Source: Argopecten irradians (taxonomy: Eukaryota; Mollusca; Bivalvia; Pectinida; Pectinidae). Taken from it: a stretch of 64,000 nt of DNA. The stretch spans positions 59,494,567-59,558,566 of the forward strand of contig NC_091135.1 in NCBI RefSeq assembly GCF_041381155.1, read 5' to 3'. Positions 12,201 through 21,019 of this stretch are shown piece by piece (positions within the stretch are counted from its first letter, which is position 1; every line of letters begins with the position of its first letter). The notes under the pieces were generated by a model. The model was given only the letters and a program-made list of their open reading frames with translations, made no database searches and was not told where the DNA came from. The position numbers were made by a program, and so were the translations under genes.

Positions 12201-15200
12201 GGCTAAAATCTTTAAACAACTTCTTCTCAAGAACTGAAAGGCCCAGGTTACTGATATTGGGCATGTAGCATGCTGGGATAAAGGGCTACCAAGTTTGTTC
12301 AAATGAATGACCTTCATTCAAGGTCACAGGGGTCAAATAGGCTAAAATCTTGATAAACAACTTCTTATCAAGAAACGAAAAGCTCAGGGTACTCATACTG
12401 GGCCTGCAACATGCTTGGATGAAGAGCTACCAAGTTTGTTGAAATGAATGACATTGACCTTCATTCAAGGTCATGGGGTCAAATATGCTAAAATCTTTTA
12501 AACAATTTCTTCTAAAGAACCGAAAGTTCTAGCATGCTCATATTGGGCATGCAGCATGCTGGGATGAACGGCTACCAATTTTGTTCAAATGAATGACTTT
12601 GACCTTCATTCAAGGTTACATGGGTCAAATAGGCTTAAATCTTTAAACGGCTTCTTTTCAAGAACCAAAAGGCCCTGGATACTCATATTGGGCCTGCAGC
12701 ATGTTGGGATGAAAAGCTACCAAATTTGTTGAAATGAATGACATTGACCTTCATTCAAGGTCACAGAAGTTAAATAGGCTCAAATCTTTTAATGAATTCT
12801 TCTCAAGAACTGAAAGGCCCAGGATACCCATTTTGGGCCTGCAACATGCTTTGGTGAAGGGCTACCTAGTTTGTTCAAATTAATGACCTTGACTGTCATT
12901 CAAGGTCACAGGGGTCAAATAGGTCAAAATTTTAAACAACTTCTTGAGAATAACTATGAGGCCTCGGGACCTGATATAGGGCCTGTGACATGCTGGGATG
13001 AAGAGCTACCAAGTTTGTTCAAATGAATAACCTTGATCTTCAATCAAATCAAGGTCACAGAGGTCAAATAGGCTATAATCTTTAAACGACTATGTTATAT
13101 TGTGTTAATAGTCAGATAACCATTAAGGCCCATGGGCCTCTTGCTTTTCAGTTACAAAAGCTACTTACTTTTCACCATTACCACCATTGAAAAGTTTGCG
13201 CTTCGAATTTTACTTTAAGATAAAAACATAAGAAATATGTTTTTTTATTAATTGCATCCCGAAAAAATTCTGTGGCTTTATATCCTATATGGAATGAAGT
13301 ACTGATGGCGCATGCACCAAAGTTGTCGGCAGTTGAGCATCTTTAATTTATTTCATTATATATTCCAACTCAGGTGATCATGTGGCCTAAGGCCCATGGG
13401 CCTCTTGTTATTTTGCTGTAATCAATATTGATGCTGGTATCGTTTGTGCGATGAGATGAGATGAAGAGGTTTTGCCGAGTCTTCTAATCTTTCTGTTGAC
13501 ACCAAAGTAAAACTTGTATTGTAAGATACTGACTGTGTATTTTGTTTAACCTGTAACCTTTTTTCATTATACATGCAGATGGCATTCAAAATGAAAGGAA
13601 ATGGCCGGTTATTTATATGATTTCGCTATAAGCGAGATGCTTCTTTGATGATCCGAGAAAAGATGCATGCACTAAAGCGAATAAGTGTGTTCTCCTTTTT
13701 ACTACCGTGGGAAATATGTAAGCAACGTAATTCCGGTGATTGTGACATCACTGTTTGGCGGGACTGACTGACGATTCAAAAGTGATGTCACTGGAGCATC
13801 AAATTTAGAATTGGGAATCAAAATAAAGAAATTAGACATTTATTTACTTACATTGTCATATTTTTCTATTGTAGCTGTTACAGGAAATTCTTATTATCTG
13901 GTGTCCAGTTCTATGCCCGACTAATGTTGATATTAGTGCTGAAAATGGATTGTTTATTGATATTGTTCCGCTTCTTTTGTTGTGTTTAAATTCGCAATGT
14001 TGAAGGGCGTCAGAACGCTTGTTTTCAACCGGAATAAACACTGTAGGGATAAAGACCTTGCATGTATGGCAACAGTGGATATTTGCACCGGGAGAATTTT
14101 TGCAGACCAGGAACCAAGATTGCCGCCATGGCATGCAATTGGTCAAAATTGAACAAAAAGGAACATGGTTGAGAGCATAAATCTAATACAATTATAGGCA
14201 TTGTTGTGCCTAAGACATTAACTTTAAATGATGTGACTTTCCAAAAAGCATTTTTCTTCCACGAAATAAAATTTATTTACCTGTAAAACAATGTCACACC
14301 ATTATTCAGGGGAGGTCACTCTTGTCAAAGTAGGCTCAGTGGAGATTGGGGGAACTTTATGTGATGGCACAGGTCACAATTAGATCCTGTTATTAGTTAT
14401 ATTAGTTCTATTATTTCAATCCTTCATAATAAAACTGAATACAAAATATGTTACTGCTTTGTGAAGTTGTATGAAGAGTACAAACGTCTCCTAACTGATA
14501 ACTCAAGTAAACATATATTTCTGCTACAGTATTCACTAATATTTTTGTAGCATTAACAACATCTTTGGTTGGTGAAAATATTTACCACTAGATACTCACT
14601 GAATTTTATAAATAAGCGTTGATTTATTCTATAAATAGCTGGCCTGTCAGGATGAAGATGAAGAGGAGGAAGATACTGAAGTGGCCGAGTTTGATGGGAT
14701 GCTGATTGAGTCCGCAGGTGATGTCCTACCACTAATGGCCAAACTACTTGGTGGTCAAGCTTTCCTGCCTTTCTTCTCAACCTTTCTAACAGACCTCCTA
14801 AAACGATTGGTTAGTAGATAGTAGCTGGATAATTGGTCTTTCTAACAGACCACCTAAAACGATTGAGTTAATAGTACCTCCTAAAACGATTGGTTAGTAA
14901 ATAGTAGCTGGATAATTGGTCTTTCTAACAGACCACCTAAAACGATTGGTTAGTAAATAGTAGCTGGATAATTGGTCTTTCTAACACACCACCTAAAACG
15001 ATTGGTTAGTAAATAGTAGCTGGATAATTGGTCTTTCTAACAGACCACCTAAAACGATTGGTTAGTAAATAGTAGCTGGATAATTGGTCTTTCTAACAGA
15101 CCACCTAAAACGATTGGTTAGTAGATAGTAGCTGGATAATTGGTCTTTCTAACAGACCTCCTAAAACGATTGGCTGGATAATTGGTCTTTCTAACACACC

Positions 15201-18200
15201 TCCTAAAACGATTGGTTAGTAGATAGTAGCTGGATAATTGGTCTTTCTAACAGACCTCCTAAAACGATTGGTTAGTAGATAGTAGCTGGATAATTGGTCT
15301 TTCATTGATCAAAGTCTGAATAAGTGTATTTAAATATGATTTGACGGTTTCAGTGTATGAAATCTAGCTAAATATGAAGTATTGCATCTTTTTATAAAAA
15401 ATAGTTTTGTTAGTGATTAAAAGTCAATTATTTTACCTTCAATTATTTCTTTAATAGAAGCAGACGAGTTCTGTAGCAGAGAGGTCATTTGCTGTAGGGA
15501 CGCTAGCAGAGATTGTACAGGCCTGTGGGACTGCTATCCTTCCCTTCACTGACACATTGTATCCACTGTTCATGAAGATGGTGAGGGACGAGGACGAGGA
15601 AGTCTCTAGTAATGCTGTGTTTGCTGTAGGTGTCCTGATAGCTAATAGTGAGGAGAAACTATACTCGTATCCTTTTGTCTGGTATAATAGTTCCACTCAT
15701 ATGGGAATATGGTGTTTTCTCACCCTCAGTTTTTACCCAGCCTCTTGTTTGGTAACTCTCAGATTATGAACTGGCATGTGTCACTGGCATGTTATCAAAT
15801 AGGAAAAATGTAATTGCTAATAATTGGAAGGATTAGGGATAAAGTCAAGATATTGTGTGGTAATTCAAAATGCTATGTTAATGTAATATATGATGTTCAA
15901 GCTATTATGACTTCTTTAATTTCACTATTTTCTGAATAGCAACTCTAATCTGTCAATTGTTTAAAGAGTAATCATCGATTAAATTAGTAATTCAGGACAG
16001 AATTTTACCGTCTCTCCTAATTCTGCAATAAAAACAAAGATAAGTTTGAATTTATCCTTAGCCACTTATCAGACAATACCCAGATGTCCTCAAGTGCTTA
16101 TTCGACATTCTAAGTAAAGCGGAAAATCCCCGTCTCCTAGACAACATCTGTGCTGCCACCTGTCGGATGATAATGACTAACAAAGCTGGTGTGCCAATGT
16201 CACAGGTTTGTTTTTTAAAGCAGCATTTGAAGGTGTCATGATGTGGTCAATTCTCAGATTGTTTTAGCTTAGGGCTGTTCCAGCAAAACATATATGGCAC
16301 CCAGGGAAGGCACTTTAAAGGTGGGTTCAAAATAAAATCACTTCTGTGCCAGGGTCACGTTTCAATAAAATCACTTCTGTGCCAGGGTCACGTTTCAATA
16401 AAATCACTTCTGTGCCAGGGTCACGTTTCAATAAAATCACTTCTTTGGGTGGGTCTATCTGAAGCACTTTTTGAAATAAAATACAAAATTTGTGTTTTAT
16501 AATGTTGCTGTCAGTCATCCTGACTACAAAAATAACTGTTGAGAACAATTTTAATTTCTGACTATATTAATGTGTTGTTCATCTTCAAAAAAACACAATT
16601 ATTTTATTTCTGGGTGTTTTGATATATTAATGACAGAAATACTGTTGTCATCAACAGATCTTTATTTAAATTCACTGGTATTACGTCGAGGAAAAAGTGG
16701 CACTTTACAAGCTTAAGTGTGAATGTCCAGATGTCTACTCTTGCATTACGCTTGTGAAACACTTTAGTAGAATTTCTTCTGGTTCTACAAGGATTGTACC
16801 TTTATACAAATTTAGTAATACAGTACAATTTTGTCCTAGGACTCTTCGGTGATGCTAGAAATCAAAATATGTAAATCCGAAAAATCGCTTCTATGCCATG
16901 GTTGGGTACACAAAAAAATAGATATGTGTGGGGGTCAACAAAATTGAAAATTGCTTCTATCAGTGAGTCTCCCAATTTCAAAGTGCCTTCCCCCCCTACC
17001 ATATTTGTTTTGCTGGAACAGCCCTTACCGTCATCAGATGATGGGCTATTCAAATTGCCTTTTTTTCGTGGTTTGTCGTCCATCTTTAAACAATTATTGT
17101 TCATGCTATTTGTCAGAAAGTACTGAAATGACTTTTCTTTCATGTTCAGGTTCCTCTTGGATTGTATATGTATATTACATTTTGCGACTGATCTTCAACA
17201 AGATGGCTTACTGGCAGCCATCTTGGATTTTGTTAGGTGCATTTTGTTGTCACTATTTTCCAGAAAGTACTGTGTGGAGCTCTATGTATATGTAGGTTGC
17301 CTTTGGTCCCTAGAGTTCAATACATTTCGTGAATTATCAGATAACAACATGACCAATATACAGCACATCTTGGATTTTGACACTTTCACAGAAAGTACTA
17401 ATAAGAACGGTACAAATTTGTCCTAGGACTCTTCGGTGATGCTAGATATCAAAATATGTAAATTCAAAAATATGCTGGATCAAATAAAAAAAATAATTTG
17501 CTTCTATGCCATAGTCTCGTTCACAAAAAATAGATATGTGGGGAGATCAACAAAATTGAAAATCGCTTCTATCAGTGGGTCTCCTGATTTCAAAGTGCCT
17601 TCCCCCCTACCATATATGTTTTGCTGGAACAGCCCTTATAACTTATAGCCCTGCATATCTATTTGATAGCAAAACCAAACACAACATGACGGACAGTTGC
17701 CATATTGAATTGACAATTGGAGTGTGTTGCTGCTATGCATACTCCATATGAAGTTTCACCATGTATATTCAATGTTTTCAAAGTAAAAGTAAAAAGCAGG
17801 GACTTGTGTTCTAAAAATACTTGAAATTATCAAAAATGTGATTGTTGTGTTTGACAGGTCGTGCCTGTGGTGATGCAGTGTCTGCCCCTGAAGGAGGACT
17901 TTGAGGAGAATGCCACTGTATATAAATGTCTGTCAGACCTCTATAGTAATGGTGATTCAGAGGTCAGTGTTTTACTAGCTCGTCTATTTCAAAGGGATGG
18001 TCAGCTTAAGGGATCGTCAGCTTAGTCCATAATTTTCAAAGGAGTGGTCAGATTATTCATGTTCAAAAGGGGTGGTCATCTCATCCTATAATGTTCCAAT
18101 GGGGTGATCAGCTTAAGCTATGTTCCAAAGGGGTGGTCAGCATAAGTCATGTTCTAAAGGGGTATCAGTTTATCCTATGGTGTTCCAGAGGGGTGGTCAG

Positions 18201-21019
18201 CCTGTCCTAGGATGTTCTGATGGGGTGATCAACTTATCATATAACATTCTTAAGGGTTGGTCAGCTTATCCTATGATATTGCAAAGGGGTGCTCAGCTTA
18301 TCCTATGGTGATCCTAAGGGGTGCTCAGCTTATCCTATGGTGATCCAAAGGGGTGCTCAGCTTATCCTATTATGTTCCAAAGGGGTGCTCAGCTTATCCT
18401 ATGATGTTCCAAAGGGGTGCTCAGCTTATCCTATGATGTTCCAAAGGAGTGCTCGGCTTATCCTATTATGTTCCAAAGGGGTGCTCAGCTTATCCTATGA
18501 TGTTCCAAAGGGGTGCTCAGTTTATCCTATGATGTTCCAAAGGGGTGCTCAGCTTATCCTATGATGTTCCAAAGGGGTGCTCAGCTTATCCTATTATGTT
18601 CCAAAGGGGTGCTCAGCTTATCCTATGATGTTCCAAAGGGGTGCTCAGTTTATCCTATGATGTTCCAAAGGGGTGCTCAGCTTATCCTATGATGTTCCAA
18701 AGGGGTGCTCAGTTTATCCTATGATGTTCCAAAGGAGTGCTCAGCTTATACTATGATGTTCCAAATGGGTGCTCAGCTTATCCTGTGATGTTTCAAAGGG
18801 GTGCTCAGCTTATACTATGATGTTCCAAAGGGGCCGCTCAGCTTATCCTATGATGTTCCAAAGGGGTGCTCAGCTTATCCTATGATGTTCCAAAGTGGTG
18901 CTCAGCTTATCCTATTATGTTCCAAAGGGGTGCTCAGTTTATCCTATGATGTTCCAAAGGGGTGCTCAGCTTATCCTATTATGTTCCAAAGGGGTGCTCA
19001 GCTTATCCTATGATGTTCCAAAGGGGTGCTCAGTTTATCCTATGATGTTCCAAAGGGGTGCTCAGCTTATCCTATGATGTTCCAAAGGGGTGCTCAGCTT
19101 ATCCTATTATGTTCCAAAGGGGTGCTCAGCTTATCCTATGATGTTCCAAAGGGGTGCTCAGTTTATCCTATGATGTTCCAAAGGGGTGCTCAGTTTATCC
19201 TATGATGTTCCAAAGGGGTGCTCAGCTTATCCTATGATGTTCCAAAGGGGTGCTCAGTTTATCCTATGATGTTCCAAAGGGGTGCTCAGCTTATCCTATG
19301 ATGTTCCAAAGGGGTGCTCAGCTTATCCTATTATGTTCCAAAGGGGTGCTCAGCTTATCCTATGATGTTCCAAAGGGGTGCTCAGCTTATCCTATGATGT
19401 TCCAAAGGGGTGCTCAGTTTATCCTATGATGTTCCAAAGGAGTGCTCAGCTTATCCTATGATGTTCCAAATGGGTGCTCAGCTTATCCTGTGATGTTCCA
19501 AAGGGGTGCTCAGCTTATCCTGTGATGTTCCAAAGGGGTGCTCAGCTTATCCTATGATGTTCCAAAGGGGTGCTCAGCTTATCCTATGATGTTCCAAAGG
19601 GGTGCTCAGCTTATCCTATGATGTTCCAAAGGGGTGCTCAGCTTATCCTATTATGTTCCAAAGGGGTGCTCAGCTTATCCTATGATGTTCCAAAGGGGTG
19701 CTCAGCTTATCCTATGATGTTCCAAAGGGGTGCTCAGTTTATCCTATGATGTTCCAAAGGAGTGCTCAGCTTATCCTATGATGTTCCAAATGGGTGCTCA
19801 GCTTATCCTGTGATGTTCCAAAGGGGTGCTCAGCTTATCCTATTATGTTCCAAAGGGGTGCTCGGCTTATCCTATTATGTTCCAAAGGGGTGCTCAGCTT
19901 ATCCTATTATGTTCCAAAGGGGTGATCAGCTTATCCTATGATGTTCCAAAGGGTTTATCAGCTAATTAATGATGTTGTGTCTGCATCTCCAATCAATATT
20001 TGCTTTAGATTGTTACTTGTCATAGATAACTTAATTGATTTTTGCTATCAGAAACATTATTGATGACAAGATCATATTTCACACAAATTTTGACTTTAAA
20101 TCATCTCCACTCAGAAAATAGGTTTTCAGATATCTAGTAATTGCTGGGATTTTAGATGGATGATGCTGGCCTATGAGACTCTTATTTTATGCAAACAAAC
20201 TGAGTTCTTGTTAAGAGATCTATATGCATGTTCATTTTTGTTAATATTCATGATTATATTTTCACAGATTTTGAAGCAAACTCCAAAGTTACTTGAAGTT
20301 GTATCCCAAGTTTTAAGTTCAGAAGGATTTAAATTTGGTGAGTATGAATGCAAACAAAATACCAGTTACAGTATCTTTTTATAAAGATTAGATATTAAAT
20401 TAGGTGTTGTTTTGGTTACTATATTTCTTATCCTCAGCTAAACATTTGTTCTCACTTACAATAAAAACTGTTTAAATGGCCAGACCTAATCCATTTATCA
20501 GGTGTGGATCAATATTAAGTATATTCAATATTTTCAAAGAAAAAGTGAAAAGAAGGGAATAGCAGAGAAAAGATCCATTGTTCTAGTGACTGACATAGAT
20601 CATCCTATGGTAGATACAAAGAACCCTAAGTGACTGACATAGATCATCCTATGGTAGATACAAAGAACCCTCTCTGATCTCTGAACTCTTTTGTAACCAT
20701 TCAGGAGATTTTCAGTGCATCTTTCATTTGTTGGTTGATTTTCAGTGACTGATCAATTGAAATATATGAAGTCTTTGTTTTGCAATCTGATATCTCTTCA
20801 AATGTATTGAGATGACCTGTTTGTATGACTTTGTGATTGTTGTGTTTGACAGGTTGTTCCTGCTGTGTTCTACCAGAAACACAGTCCATGCTGATTCAGC
20901 TAGTGAAACTCATCCACAGGCAATTCCCAGACGACTTCAAGGCTATCACACAGAGCCTAGCCCCGGAGCAGGCCAGCAGGCTGGAGAAATGTCTAGCATA
21001 CGCCAATGGTGCTGCCTAA
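219..21019 (+). CDS. IPO4: Importin-4, C-terminal 14 exons (5' partial)
   Basis: Nuclear transport receptor of the importin-beta family, built of HEAT repeats, which carries histones and ribosomal proteins into the nucleus (family knowledge). Exons read from phase-consistent GT-AG junctions: 219-332, 1002-1118, 1365-1488, 2900-3011, 5006-5118, 6976-7053, 7291-7454, 11662-11855, 14639-14809, 15458-15666, 16073-16205, 17858-17962, 20268-20337, 20877-21019 (stop TAA 21017-21019). They join without frame conflict into about 614 residues, against roughly 1,080 for vertebrate IPO4, so the N-terminal part lies upstream of the window. Recognition rests on colinear matches to remembered IPO4: the acidic loop EEEDISQEDDEDEQQ, the second acidic loop before AEFDGMLIESAGD, SVAERSFAVGTLAE, SSNAVFAVGVL, LLDNICAA, LPLKEDFEE, and a C-terminus ETQSMLIQL...SLAPEQASRLEKCL. 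Introns carry several tandem arrays and mobile elements. The acceptor of the last exon has an in-frame alternative 24 bases upstream. Confidence 0.93.
375..730 (+). mobile_element. Hairpin-ended non-autonomous element, subfamily A (worn 5' end)
   Basis: Matches the fuller copy at 9411-10519: gcttatgtcatggcgc head, CCGTCCGT-rich stretch, core unit with 'ccaaatttggcc', and a 3' end with a ggcc palindrome followed by TCTTGTT. The 5' hairpin is degraded. It sits in the intron after the exon 219-332. Confidence 0.7.
1135..1262 (+). repeat. Short tandem duplications in IPO4 intron
   Basis: A unit of about 30 bp (agatttgttttatacag plus attttagatg) is repeated twice almost exactly, then in two diverged copies (gtttgaaacagactt...). 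The intron then continues into a decayed copy of the next exon's start (see 1283-1322). Confidence 0.75.
1283..1322 (+). pseudogene. Decayed duplicate of the start of IPO4 exon 1365-1488
   Basis: The stretch beginning gacacccttggtttgttgac matches the exon start at 1364 (gatacccttggtatgttggc) at about 33 of 38 positions, then diverges. It would read DTLGLLTRGMGLD against DTLGMLARGVGLE in the real exon. It lies 80 bp upstream of the real exon in the same orientation. No donor follows, so it is probably not used. Confidence 0.8.
1939..2580 (+). mobile_element. Hairpin-ended non-autonomous element, subfamily B
   Basis: Starts TTTTTTAGCCCACCATC and has a CCGTCCGTTAACAATT segment. The core contains about three tandem units of about 115 bp, each with a CAAGATGG...CCATCTTGG inverted pair. 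It ends GATCCCTCTGGGATC followed by TCTTGTT. No coding capacity is seen. Confidence 0.8.
3086..3781 (+). mobile_element. Hairpin-ended non-autonomous element, subfamily B
   Basis: Starts TTTTTAGTCCACCATCATC with the hairpin CCACCATC/GATGGTGG and continues with the CCGTCCGTTAACAATT segment. Four core units carry CAAGATGG/CCATCTTGG pairs, and the 3' end is GATCCCTCTGGGATC plus TCTTGTT. It inserts 74 bp downstream of the IPO4 exon ending at 3011. Confidence 0.85.
3801..4150 (+). mobile_element. Hairpin-ended non-autonomous element, subfamily C
   Basis: Head TTTTTAGGTCACC with a matching GTGACC about 20 bases later forms a 5' hairpin. It is followed by a CCGTC-rich stretch (gtccgtcattgtccgtt), a core with 'cagatgtagtagaatcaaa', and a 3' palindrome ACCCTAGGGT plus CTCTTGTT. 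The core sequence is unlike subfamilies A and B, while the order of parts is the same. Confidence 0.75.
4260..4524 (+). mobile_element. Subfamily C element, 3' part
   Basis: The core resembles that of the element ending at 4150 (the 'cacagatttgatggaagcaaa' segment), and the 3' end is GGCCTATGGGCC followed by TCTTGTT. No head is seen, so it is probably 5'-truncated or joined to the preceding copy. Confidence 0.6.
4588..4772. mobile_element. Diverged inverted-repeat element (MITE-like)
   Basis: The left end (tctttgcatattgcagac, ttacctcccttgcgggt) and the right end read in reverse (tatttgcacattaaagag, ttatctgccctttagggt) form an imperfect terminal inverted repeat of about 45 bp. No target duplication is clear. 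Confidence 0.5.
5168..6818 (+). repeat. 38-bp minisatellite, about 43 copies
   Basis: Tandem array of cagtttgtcaggggtata plus ccaccataactgtagaataa. Many copies are near-identical; some have lost a few bases, and an 'atagctg' variant becomes frequent toward the 3' end. It fills the intron between exons 5006-5118 and 6976-7053, starting 50 bp after the donor. Open frames across it are by-products of the repeat. Confidence 0.97.
7442..8323 (+). repeat. Duplication of the end and donor of IPO4 exon 7291-7454, with later insertions
   Basis: The exon tail and donor region (acacaaacaagtatgctg, taact, then cactagtcttatg; 7444-7487) recurs at 7929-7963 and continues at 8295-8323. The second copy is split by the inverted-repeat element at 7964-8294. 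The order cactagtcttatg / acacaaacaag / taact is kept. Confidence 0.75.
7964..8294. mobile_element. MITE with long inverted repeats and 9-bp target duplication (Mutator-like)
   Basis: Begins ACAGGTTTACGACGCGC and ends with its reverse complement. The arms extend over 130 bp on each side (cccatttccagaaaatgg, ttaattttaaaatgctctg and their complements), with a spacer of about 70 bp. It is flanked on both sides by GCTGTAACT (7955-7963 and 8295-8303). Long terminal inverted repeats plus a 9-bp duplication are typical of Mutator-like elements. There is no transposase. Confidence 0.85.
8332..8828. mobile_element. hAT-type MITE with 8-bp target duplication
   Basis: Starts TAGGGGTGTAACAATAC and ends with GTCACCCCTA, and is flanked on both sides by ATGTATGG (8324-8331 and 8829-8836). 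The TAGGGGTG/CACCCCTA ends with an 8-bp duplication are the hAT signature. The 497-bp interior is non-coding and rich in CAATAGT/ACTATTG motifs. Confidence 0.85.
9050..9215 (+). repeat. Two-copy direct repeat with CRE-like palindromes
   Basis: A unit of about 100 bp (gcattgtgacgtcat ... ggttgatataagattcc ... gtacccaaat) occurs twice. The second copy contains an exact palindrome pair TGTGACATCAT/ATGATGTCACA. No gene is seen here. Confidence 0.6.
9411..10519 (+). mobile_element. Hairpin-ended non-autonomous element, subfamily A (full copy)
   Basis: The 5' head TTTTTAGCTCACCTGGCC...GGCCGGTGAGC forms a hairpin, followed by a GTCCGTCCGTCCGTCAACA segment. Six to seven tandem core units of about 150 bp follow (ccaaatttggccacaaac, ggggcccaatagggg). 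It ends CAGGTGAGC, GGCCCTCTGGGCC and TCTTGTT. The ends carry complementary CTCACCTG/CAGGTGAG (sub-terminal inverted repeat). No coding capacity. Confidence 0.88.
10519..11248 (+). mobile_element. Hairpin-ended non-autonomous element, subfamily B, abutting the previous one
   Basis: Its head TTAGCCCACCATCATC with GATGGTGGG begins at the very last T of the preceding subfamily A element. CCGTCC repeats, four core units with CAAGATGG/CCATCTTGG pairs, and the 3' end CCTCTGGGATC plus TCTTGTT follow. Confidence 0.85.
11381..11516. repeat. 38-bp perfect inverted repeat (foldback)
   Basis: Arms at 11381-11418 (ATATTGACCTGTTTTCAGG...) and 11479-11516 are exact reverse complements separated by 60 bases, and the loop itself has a weaker inner stem (gatataaccc / gggtaatat). 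It lies in the IPO4 intron before exon 11662-11855. It may be a foldback MITE; no target duplication was found. Confidence 0.85.
11965..13145 (+). mobile_element. Array of eight ~144-bp units ending in GGCCCATGGGCC + TCTTG
   Basis: Eight copies of a unit with catgctgggatgaag, gctaccaagtttgttcaaat, and an internal inverted pair tgaccttcattcaaggtca. The final unit ends aaGGCCCATGGGCC plus TCTTG, the 3' signature of the hairpin-ended families. Subfamily C-like lines such as 'aacttcttctcaagaac' occur in each unit. The 5' hairpin head was not recognised. Confidence 0.8.
13146..13409 (+). mobile_element. Short 3' remnant of a hairpin-ended element
   Basis: The only firm evidence is the 3' end caggtgatcatgtggcctaa followed by GGCCCATGGGCC and TCTTGTT at 13390-13409. 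The body to the left is not recognised. Confidence 0.4.
14784..15310 (+). repeat. 56-bp tandem repeat made from an IPO4 exon tail plus its donor
   Basis: The last 24 bases of exon 14639-14809 (tttctaacagacctcctaaa, acgattg), the donor GTTAGT and about 25 bp of intron (gtagctggataattg) are repeated about ten times. Most copies keep both the exon tail and a usable-looking GTTAGT; two are shortened. The unit is not a multiple of three. Confidence 0.95.
16266..17029. mobile_element. Inverted-repeat DNA element inside IPO4 intron
   Basis: The left end (agggctgttccagcaaaaca, tatatgg) and the right end (ccatatttgttttgctggaa, cagccctta) are reverse complements. The similarity extends further inward through gggaaggcacttt/aaagtgccttcccc and a 'cttctgtgcc' segment. 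A 33-bp tandem repeat (gtttcaataaaatcacttct, gtgccagggtcac; 3-4 copies, 16328-16443) lies in its left half. Non-coding. Confidence 0.75.
16815..17639 (+). repeat. Direct duplication of the right end of the inverted-repeat element around a subfamily B fragment
   Basis: A block of about 215 bp running from 'tcctaggactcttcggtgat' to 'gctggaacagccctta' occurs at about 16815-17029 and again at about 17415-17639. Between the copies lies a worn subfamily B element (catcagatgatgggctattc; aagatggctt / agccatcttgg). The second copy has about 15% differences. Confidence 0.75.
17986..19965 (+). repeat. 32-bp minisatellite, about 60 copies
   Basis: Tandem unit ttccaaaggggtgctcag plus cttatcctatgatg. The first eight or so copies, nearest exon 17858-17962, are diverged (for example 'caaagggatggtcagctta'); the centre is nearly uniform with a few repeated variants (ttatg, cagttt, ctgtg). 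It fills the intron starting 24 bp after the donor. Reading frames through it are repeat artefacts. Confidence 0.97.
20530..20690 (+). mobile_element. Subfamily B 3' fragment with a 44-bp direct duplication
   Basis: It resembles the subfamily B end ('agcagagaaaagatcc', 'cagacatagatcattctttgg'). A block agtgactgacatagatcatc...caaagaaccct is present twice in a row. The terminal palindrome is lost. Confidence 0.55.

Follow-up and report, generated by a model that had tools for sequence, protein, structure and literature searches.

Minisatellites placed at the ends of exons have been described in a few systems. In the human IFI6 gene (6-16, G1P3), a minisatellite carries multiple splice donor sites (Turri et al. 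1995, as cited in PMC4526556), and in the excerpted account of PMC4526556 two downstream repeat units serve as donors and give isoforms. Human segmental-duplication genes possess variable internal tandem repeats at exon-intron boundaries, with 27 intron modifications after manual inspection; in the excerpt of that report these genes are recent paralogs and the repeats are said to give novel introns (PMC2812944). In fission yeast, tandem 24-bp exonic duplications containing AGGT carry an intron across the copies (Zhu and Niu 2013, as summarized in an excerpt of PMC4974935). A published model has minisatellites arising from segments that lie between direct repeats of 5-10 bp (Haber and Louis 1998, as outlined in an excerpt of PMC3389668). 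Here, we describe a ten-copy tandem array that straddles an exon-intron junction of the importin-4 gene (IPO4) in a 64-kb stretch of the Argopecten irradians genome (the window, C2:59494567-59558566 of an 845.8-Mb assembly of 1508 contigs). We consider it probable that the array is a nearly neutral minisatellite that captured a pre-existing junction, with the first donor making IPO4 and the later donors carried along as passengers.

The array at the IPO4 exon-intron junction

The exon at 14639-14809, the exon beginning at 15458 and one upstream exon match importin-4 entries of the PDB (7unk, E 3.6e-43; 5xah, E 2.6e-40), which we take to be the human protein. A Pfam search returned HEAT-type repeats, with HEAT itself above its cut-off, and the assignment of the gene to IPO4 made in the preliminary description is upheld. 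The array occupies 14782-15303, as found by Tandem Repeats Finder (TRF) and a direct copy map. All features below lie on the + strand; a slash marks a splice junction.

14639..14809, +: IPO4 coding exon (LACQDEDEEEE...FLTDLLKRL), acceptor AATAG/CTG, donor TTG/GTTAGT, phase 0 (open frame, splice signals, importin-4 alignment)
14810..15457, +: intron, 648 nt (arithmetic)
15458..15666, +: next IPO4 exon (KQTSSVAERSFAVGTLAE...), acceptor TTTAATAG/AAG, 3' end approximate (open frame, splice signals, importin-4 alignment)
14782..15303, +: junction-spanning minisatellite, 56-bp unit, ten copies, two of them shortened (TRF, copy map)
14782..14786, +: left CTTTC, exonic end of the proposed founding direct repeat (sequence)
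14850..14876, +: shortened copy of 27 bp without a donor, reading GATTGAGTTAATAG (copy map)
15157..15198, +: copy of 42 bp, its donor removed by a 14-bp deletion (copy map)
15299..15303, +: right CTTTC, intronic end of the proposed founding direct repeat, followed by the non-repeat sequence ATTGATC... (sequence)

The 56-bp unit consists of 28 exonic bases (CTTTCTAACAG...CGATTG) and 28 intronic bases. The preliminary description had seen the exon tail and its 5' splice site copied about ten times, and direct counting gives ten copies. The 56-bp unit with its boundary and GTTAGT also stands; the 24 coding bases assigned to it and the extent of 14784..15310 do not, because homology starts at 14782 and the unit consequently holds 28 exonic bases. 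With 56 bp and ten copies, the array falls within the usual size range of minisatellites (units of about 10-100 bp in several copies), and its description as a minisatellite across a splice junction is retained. TRF reports arrays of 56-bp period between 14876 and 15303 with 97-98% matches, together with a related 83-bp array that starts at 14793. On the + strand the window holds ten occurrences of the motif AAAACGATTG, all within the array from 14800 to 15261, and on the - strand none; eight of the ten run on as GTTAGT. Each of the eight occurrences of AAAACGATTGGTTAGT in the window is likewise inside the array, and beyond it the 56-mer has a best ungapped match of 29/56. The array is real and far beyond chance. 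The window as a whole is very rich in tandem repeats, with 40 TRF rows, 39 of them within the first 36 kb (region 1-35118).

The importin-4 alignment runs without a gap across the junction of the first donor (donor 1) with 15458, where FLTDLLKRL/KQTSSVAERSF stands against FLPLLVCKTKQGCTVAEKSF (FFSTFLTDLLKRL/KQTSSVAERSF against FFAGFLPLLVCKTKQGCTVAEKSF in the PDB alignment at the junction). The single gap in the best-scoring stretch is of two residues and lies in the acidic part. Donor 1 joined to 15458 in phase 0 therefore restores IPO4, and no other array donor joined to 15458 does so; from this coding alignment we infer the use of donor 1 in RNA. DNA searches of the assembly with the array and its surroundings gave this locus only among the best-scoring candidates, and the best-scoring candidates of a protein search were the two IPO4 exons and one insignificant match (E 0.449); neither kind of search returned a second IPO4 copy or a haplotig. 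Farther along, two acceptor-like IPO4 regions at 17840-17867 and 20835-20862 share GATTGTTGTGTTTGACAGGTYGTKCCTG, and between them lies a 59-copy array with a 32-bp unit (18059-19953).

Predicted products of the donor ladder

Eight of the ten copies possess an intact donor, identical as TTG/GTTAGT and each reading TTGGTTAGT. The ladder of near-identical donors noted in the preliminary description is thus borne out, and the predicted U1 duplex energy is the same for all eight, -6.8 kcal/mol. Distances below are from donor 1.

14810..14815, +: donor 1, GTTAGT, the sole donor of the eight predicted to give intact IPO4 (gapless importin-4 alignment; otherwise an in-frame stop)
14819..14821, +: in-frame TAG, read when donor 1 is skipped (translation of the retained intron)
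14893..14898, +: donor copy, +83 nt (this and the following rows from the copy map)
14949..14954, +: donor copy, +139 nt
15005..15010, +: donor copy, +195 nt, frame kept but TAG passed
15061..15066, +: donor copy, +251 nt
15117..15122, +: donor copy, +307 nt
15215..15220, +: donor copy, +405 nt, frame kept but TAG passed
15271..15276, +: donor copy, +461 nt

It had been proposed that the later donors would matter by breaking the reading frame. Two of the seven preserve it (195 and 405 are multiples of three), and the decisive feature is instead the intron start GTT AGT AGA TAG, in which an in-frame stop ends 12 nt past donor 1. The frameshift argument is beside the point because every later donor retains this TAG (7/7 products). 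As translated, the later IPO4 donors could give truncated protein only.

Two intrinsic explanations for a preference for donor 1 were considered. A stronger first donor is rejected by the equal U1 duplex energies. Concealment of the later donors by RNA folding is not persuasive, since accessibility shows no clear preference for donor 1: the mean unpaired probability in a long fold is 0.35 for donor 1 and 0.20-0.31 for the other seven, and in local folds it is 0.36 for donor 1, 0.42 for the next donor and 0.22-0.30 for the remaining six.

The IPO4 array is a member of an already known kind of exon-end or boundary minisatellite, with IFI6 as its precedent. As in IFI6, a minisatellite at an exon end supplies several donors to one intron, exon end and donor lying together in the unit in 8 of the 10 copies. 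Unlike in IFI6, every later donor passes an in-frame TAG, so that all seven later products lack the prospect of a protein isoform; the likeness to IFI6 is one of structure. The human segmental-duplication repeats are likewise minisatellites at exon-intron boundaries with several per genome; they differ in that IPO4 was found once in the assembly and its intron is seemingly older than the array. The fission yeast case shares the multiple tandem copies near splice sites, whereas there the repeated segment is exonic with the intron across copies and here the intron seems to precede the array. As in the Haber and Louis model, a short direct repeat (CTTTC) flanks a putative 56-bp founding segment, which in this case spans a splice junction. 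A literature search that included bivalves returned no splice-junction minisatellites in molluscs, as judged by titles and the beginnings of abstracts; mostly at the level of search listings, it returned neither so dense a recurrence in the conserved genes of a single genome nor a donor/acceptor mirror image of junction-spanning arrays.

Other junction-spanning arrays in the assembly

Similar arrays were sought in the same assembly among matches to two protein families unrelated to each other, Pkinase and WD40. The sample is 140 exon-bearing loci from 292 listed rows (142 Pkinase, 150 WD40), comprising the best 30 loci from each family search (L006-L065) and 80 further loci (L066-L145; 60 of the 120 remaining WD40 rows and 20 of the 112 remaining Pkinase rows) chosen roughly in list order with their sequence unseen, the kinases mostly with short open frames. 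These loci represent 138 distinct open frames, of which 114 probably come from split genes because they are under 250 aa. The search took in arrays lying no more than 80 bp from the match (23 loci) or touching the open frame (which added L009, L021, L023, L054 and L094); exon edges farther than 80 bp from a match or open frame would be missed. Left out of visual inspection were L007, L010, L016, L030 and L137, whose short repeats lie in the match or close to it, and L009, L021 and L023, with repeats inside long open frames. Spanning calls are our own reading of frame and splice signals, made on the sequence only.

Inspection revealed nine further junction-spanning arrays, six at donors and three at acceptors, and the view that such an array is rare finds no support in this genome. 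They are listed here with one array that repeats a coding end.

L055: donor-spanning, 56 bp x 3.4, copies 75% alike; in-frame stop ends 4 nt after donor 1
L074: donor-spanning, 85 bp x 2.0; in-frame stop ends 27 nt after donor 1
L093: donor-spanning, 53 bp, at least 21.6 copies, runs off the fetched stretch; in-frame stop ends 57 nt after donor 1
L101: donor-spanning, 39 bp x 2.2; in-frame stop ends 119 nt after donor 1
L102: donor-spanning, 113 bp, at least 10.1 copies, runs off the fetched stretch; in-frame stop ends 24 nt after donor 1
L136: donor-spanning, 39 bp x 17.5, continues less regularly to the end of the stretch; in-frame stop ends 4 nt after donor 1
L108: acceptor-spanning, 48 bp x 2.4
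L139: acceptor-spanning, 46 bp, at least 17.9 copies
L067: acceptor-spanning, about 31 bp, with nine copies of the motif in the array plus a tenth at the exon
L075: repeats an apparent coding end, 75 bp, at least 5.4 copies

Three of these (L074, L101, L108) have few copies, 2.0-2.5. The call for L067 rests on a motif search and the eye rather than on TRF, which ends at 374, while the exon-adjacent copy lies at 385-402 and contributes about 5 exonic bases. Because of the geometry, the exonic copy is always the outermost, being the 5'-most in every donor case and the 3'-most in every acceptor case. An in-frame stop follows donor 1 in all six donor-spanning cases, as is expected of ordinary introns. 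L139 (C9:39078550-39079550; with L150) mirrors the IPO4 case: upstream of this kinase exon stand at least 17 repeats of its acceptor and first bases, GTTGGTCAG/ATCTGTGATTTTGG. L055 and L075 (C12:37902384-37906000) are possibly one WD40 gene with a donor-spanning array plus an array that repeats the apparent coding end and stop codon.

In the sequence up to 400 bp from the matches, arrays account for 7.6%, against 0.6% in the domain matches themselves. Nine spanning arrays over 228 edges (two for each of the 114 distinct open frames under 250 aa) give a rate of 3.9%, about half of the flank array rate and several times the coding rate, a rough figure from few and partly dependent cases. The survey cases are not independent, and the coverage counts overlaps twice, because the stretches overlap and several come from one gene, as L055 and L075 possibly do. 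These rates suggest a greater tolerance of arrays at junctions than in coding sequence and give no indication of active recruitment; no special mechanism is needed, since the spanning rate is about half of that expected from the array density beside exons.

Donors within the arrays show a mixed pattern of loss and retention among ungapped units. L136 has often lost the donor (GT kept in 8 of 18 units); in L102, GT is present in all ten. In L093 (C5:46027200-46028100), a WD40 exon tail and its donor (..TVIVWK/GTAGGT) are repeated at least 21 times with a 53-bp period. The same exon is found on C586 (30200-31800; L146, L147), with the same 80 bases before the array and a different order of unit variants; its donor 1 is GTAAGT, versus GTAGGT in L093, and it may be another allele or a copy of the L093 exon. 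The two shortened IPO4 copies are absent from this count because ungapped units alone were scored, and no conclusion on selection is drawn because the units of one array are not independent.

Spanning was rejected after inspection for L031, L038, L039, L049, L050, L054, L072, L089, L094, L096, L112, L129 and L132. In L112 (C5:1108700-1109600), repeats upstream of the exon hold several acceptor-like CTCCCTTYTTTCAG stretches and no exon sequence. L132 (C4:24905150-24906150) is an intronic 45-bp array in which each unit resembles a micro-exon, CCCTACAG/AACATACGCAGTCAG/GTAATA.

Origin and competing explanations

The two CTTTC at 14782-14786 and 15299-15303 are consistent with a 56-bp segment having been duplicated between direct repeats of 5 bp, the lower end of the 5-10 bp of the published model. 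In the proposed sequence of events, the last 28 bp of the exon and the first 28 bp of a pre-existing intron would have been tandemly duplicated between two CTTTC 56 bp apart, as the flanks suggest, and the segment would then have been amplified to ten copies as a minisatellite. Exon-type variants occur at both ends of the array: CCTCC is present in the exon copy, the copy at 14877 and the last three copies, with CCACC in the five others, and the exon copy shares GTAGATAG with the final two copies and the site at 15101, four copies in between having GTAAATAG. This distribution fits the exon copy as the source, though the series is not clean. When a donor is duplicated in tandem, the exon stays attached to the 5'-most copy, so that a complete exon end with its donor would always remain. 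The first donor, joined to the acceptor at 15458, would produce the IPO4 mRNA and the other seven would be passengers; any transcript using them would run at once into the in-frame stop and would be a probable target of nonsense-mediated decay. The same process, mirrored at acceptors where the 3'-most copy is exonic, would have taken place repeatedly in this minisatellite-rich genome.

Several observations weigh against the account of a neutral array with passenger donors. No intrinsic feature marks donor 1, because U1 pairing is equal throughout, accessibility shows no clear preference and a GT within the exon (14718) pairs better with U1 than the array donors do (-8.4 versus -6.8; the next best GT in 14640-15457 outside the array donors is -5.0). 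When two donors compete in experimental tests, the intron-proximal one often wins. All units of L093 (21 of 21) share one donor 9-mer while other positions vary, and in the C586 counterpart a single 9-mer is common to 20 of the 21 units after the first, with GT in 22 of 22; such near-invariance could hint at constraint, but the units are not independent and L136 shows frequent loss. The CTTTC repeat is only 5 bp long, and a founding repeat is proposed for the IPO4 array alone.

The extra donors might instead form a regulatory ladder, competing for U1 such that a share of transcripts dependent on copy number ends at the TAG, decays and tunes the IPO4 level. The seven extra donors do match the first in predicted U1 pairing, the stop lies within 12 nt of donor 1, and downstream repeat donors are usable in IFI6, according to the excerpted account (PMC4526556). 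However, 2 of the 10 copies have lost the donor, and spanning arrays occur at about half the rate expected from the array density beside exons, with no hint of positive recruitment; we judge regulation of this kind quite unlikely.

Intron gain as in the Rogers model, where tandem duplication of an exonic AGGT segment would have produced the array and the array the intron, is highly improbable. The array does span the junction, and intron gains of such a type are described in the excerpted source (PMC4974935). Against this, the IPO4 intron does not consist of duplicated exonic sequence containing AGGT: the junction is TTG/GTT rather than AG/GT, and neither the intronic half of the unit nor the last 154 nt of the intron (15304-15457) repeats exon sequence. 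For the latter reason the intron is probably older than the array; subtracting the 461 nt of extra copies leaves a length of 187 nt. False expansion in the assembly is hardly credible, for although tandem repeats misassemble easily, the array is just 522 bp with non-repeat sequence on either side, and substitutions and two shortenings, in a fixed order, tell its copies apart.

The IPO4 array, read as a minisatellite that captured its junction, is mechanistically ordinary and apparently a member of a recurrent class. A bolder generalization, which we regard as rather unlikely, is that minisatellites spanning junctions form a standing class of gene structure here, affecting several percent of exons at donors and, in mirror image, at acceptors. 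The outermost site would be routinely picked, and the remaining sites would be decoys, variable in copy number, that determine how much productive mRNA is made and vary from allele to allele.

Work on spliceosomal choice among identical donors of a single transcript usually relies on artificial constructs. This one genome offers natural exact tandem copies of an exon end and its donor, eight in IPO4 and at least 21 in the WD40 gene of L093, and mirror-image acceptor ladders as well, which together form a natural replicate set for splice choice by position. The finding also suggests a route by which a genome can fill with minisatellites without breaking its genes, because the outer copy survives intact when a junction is duplicated in tandem.

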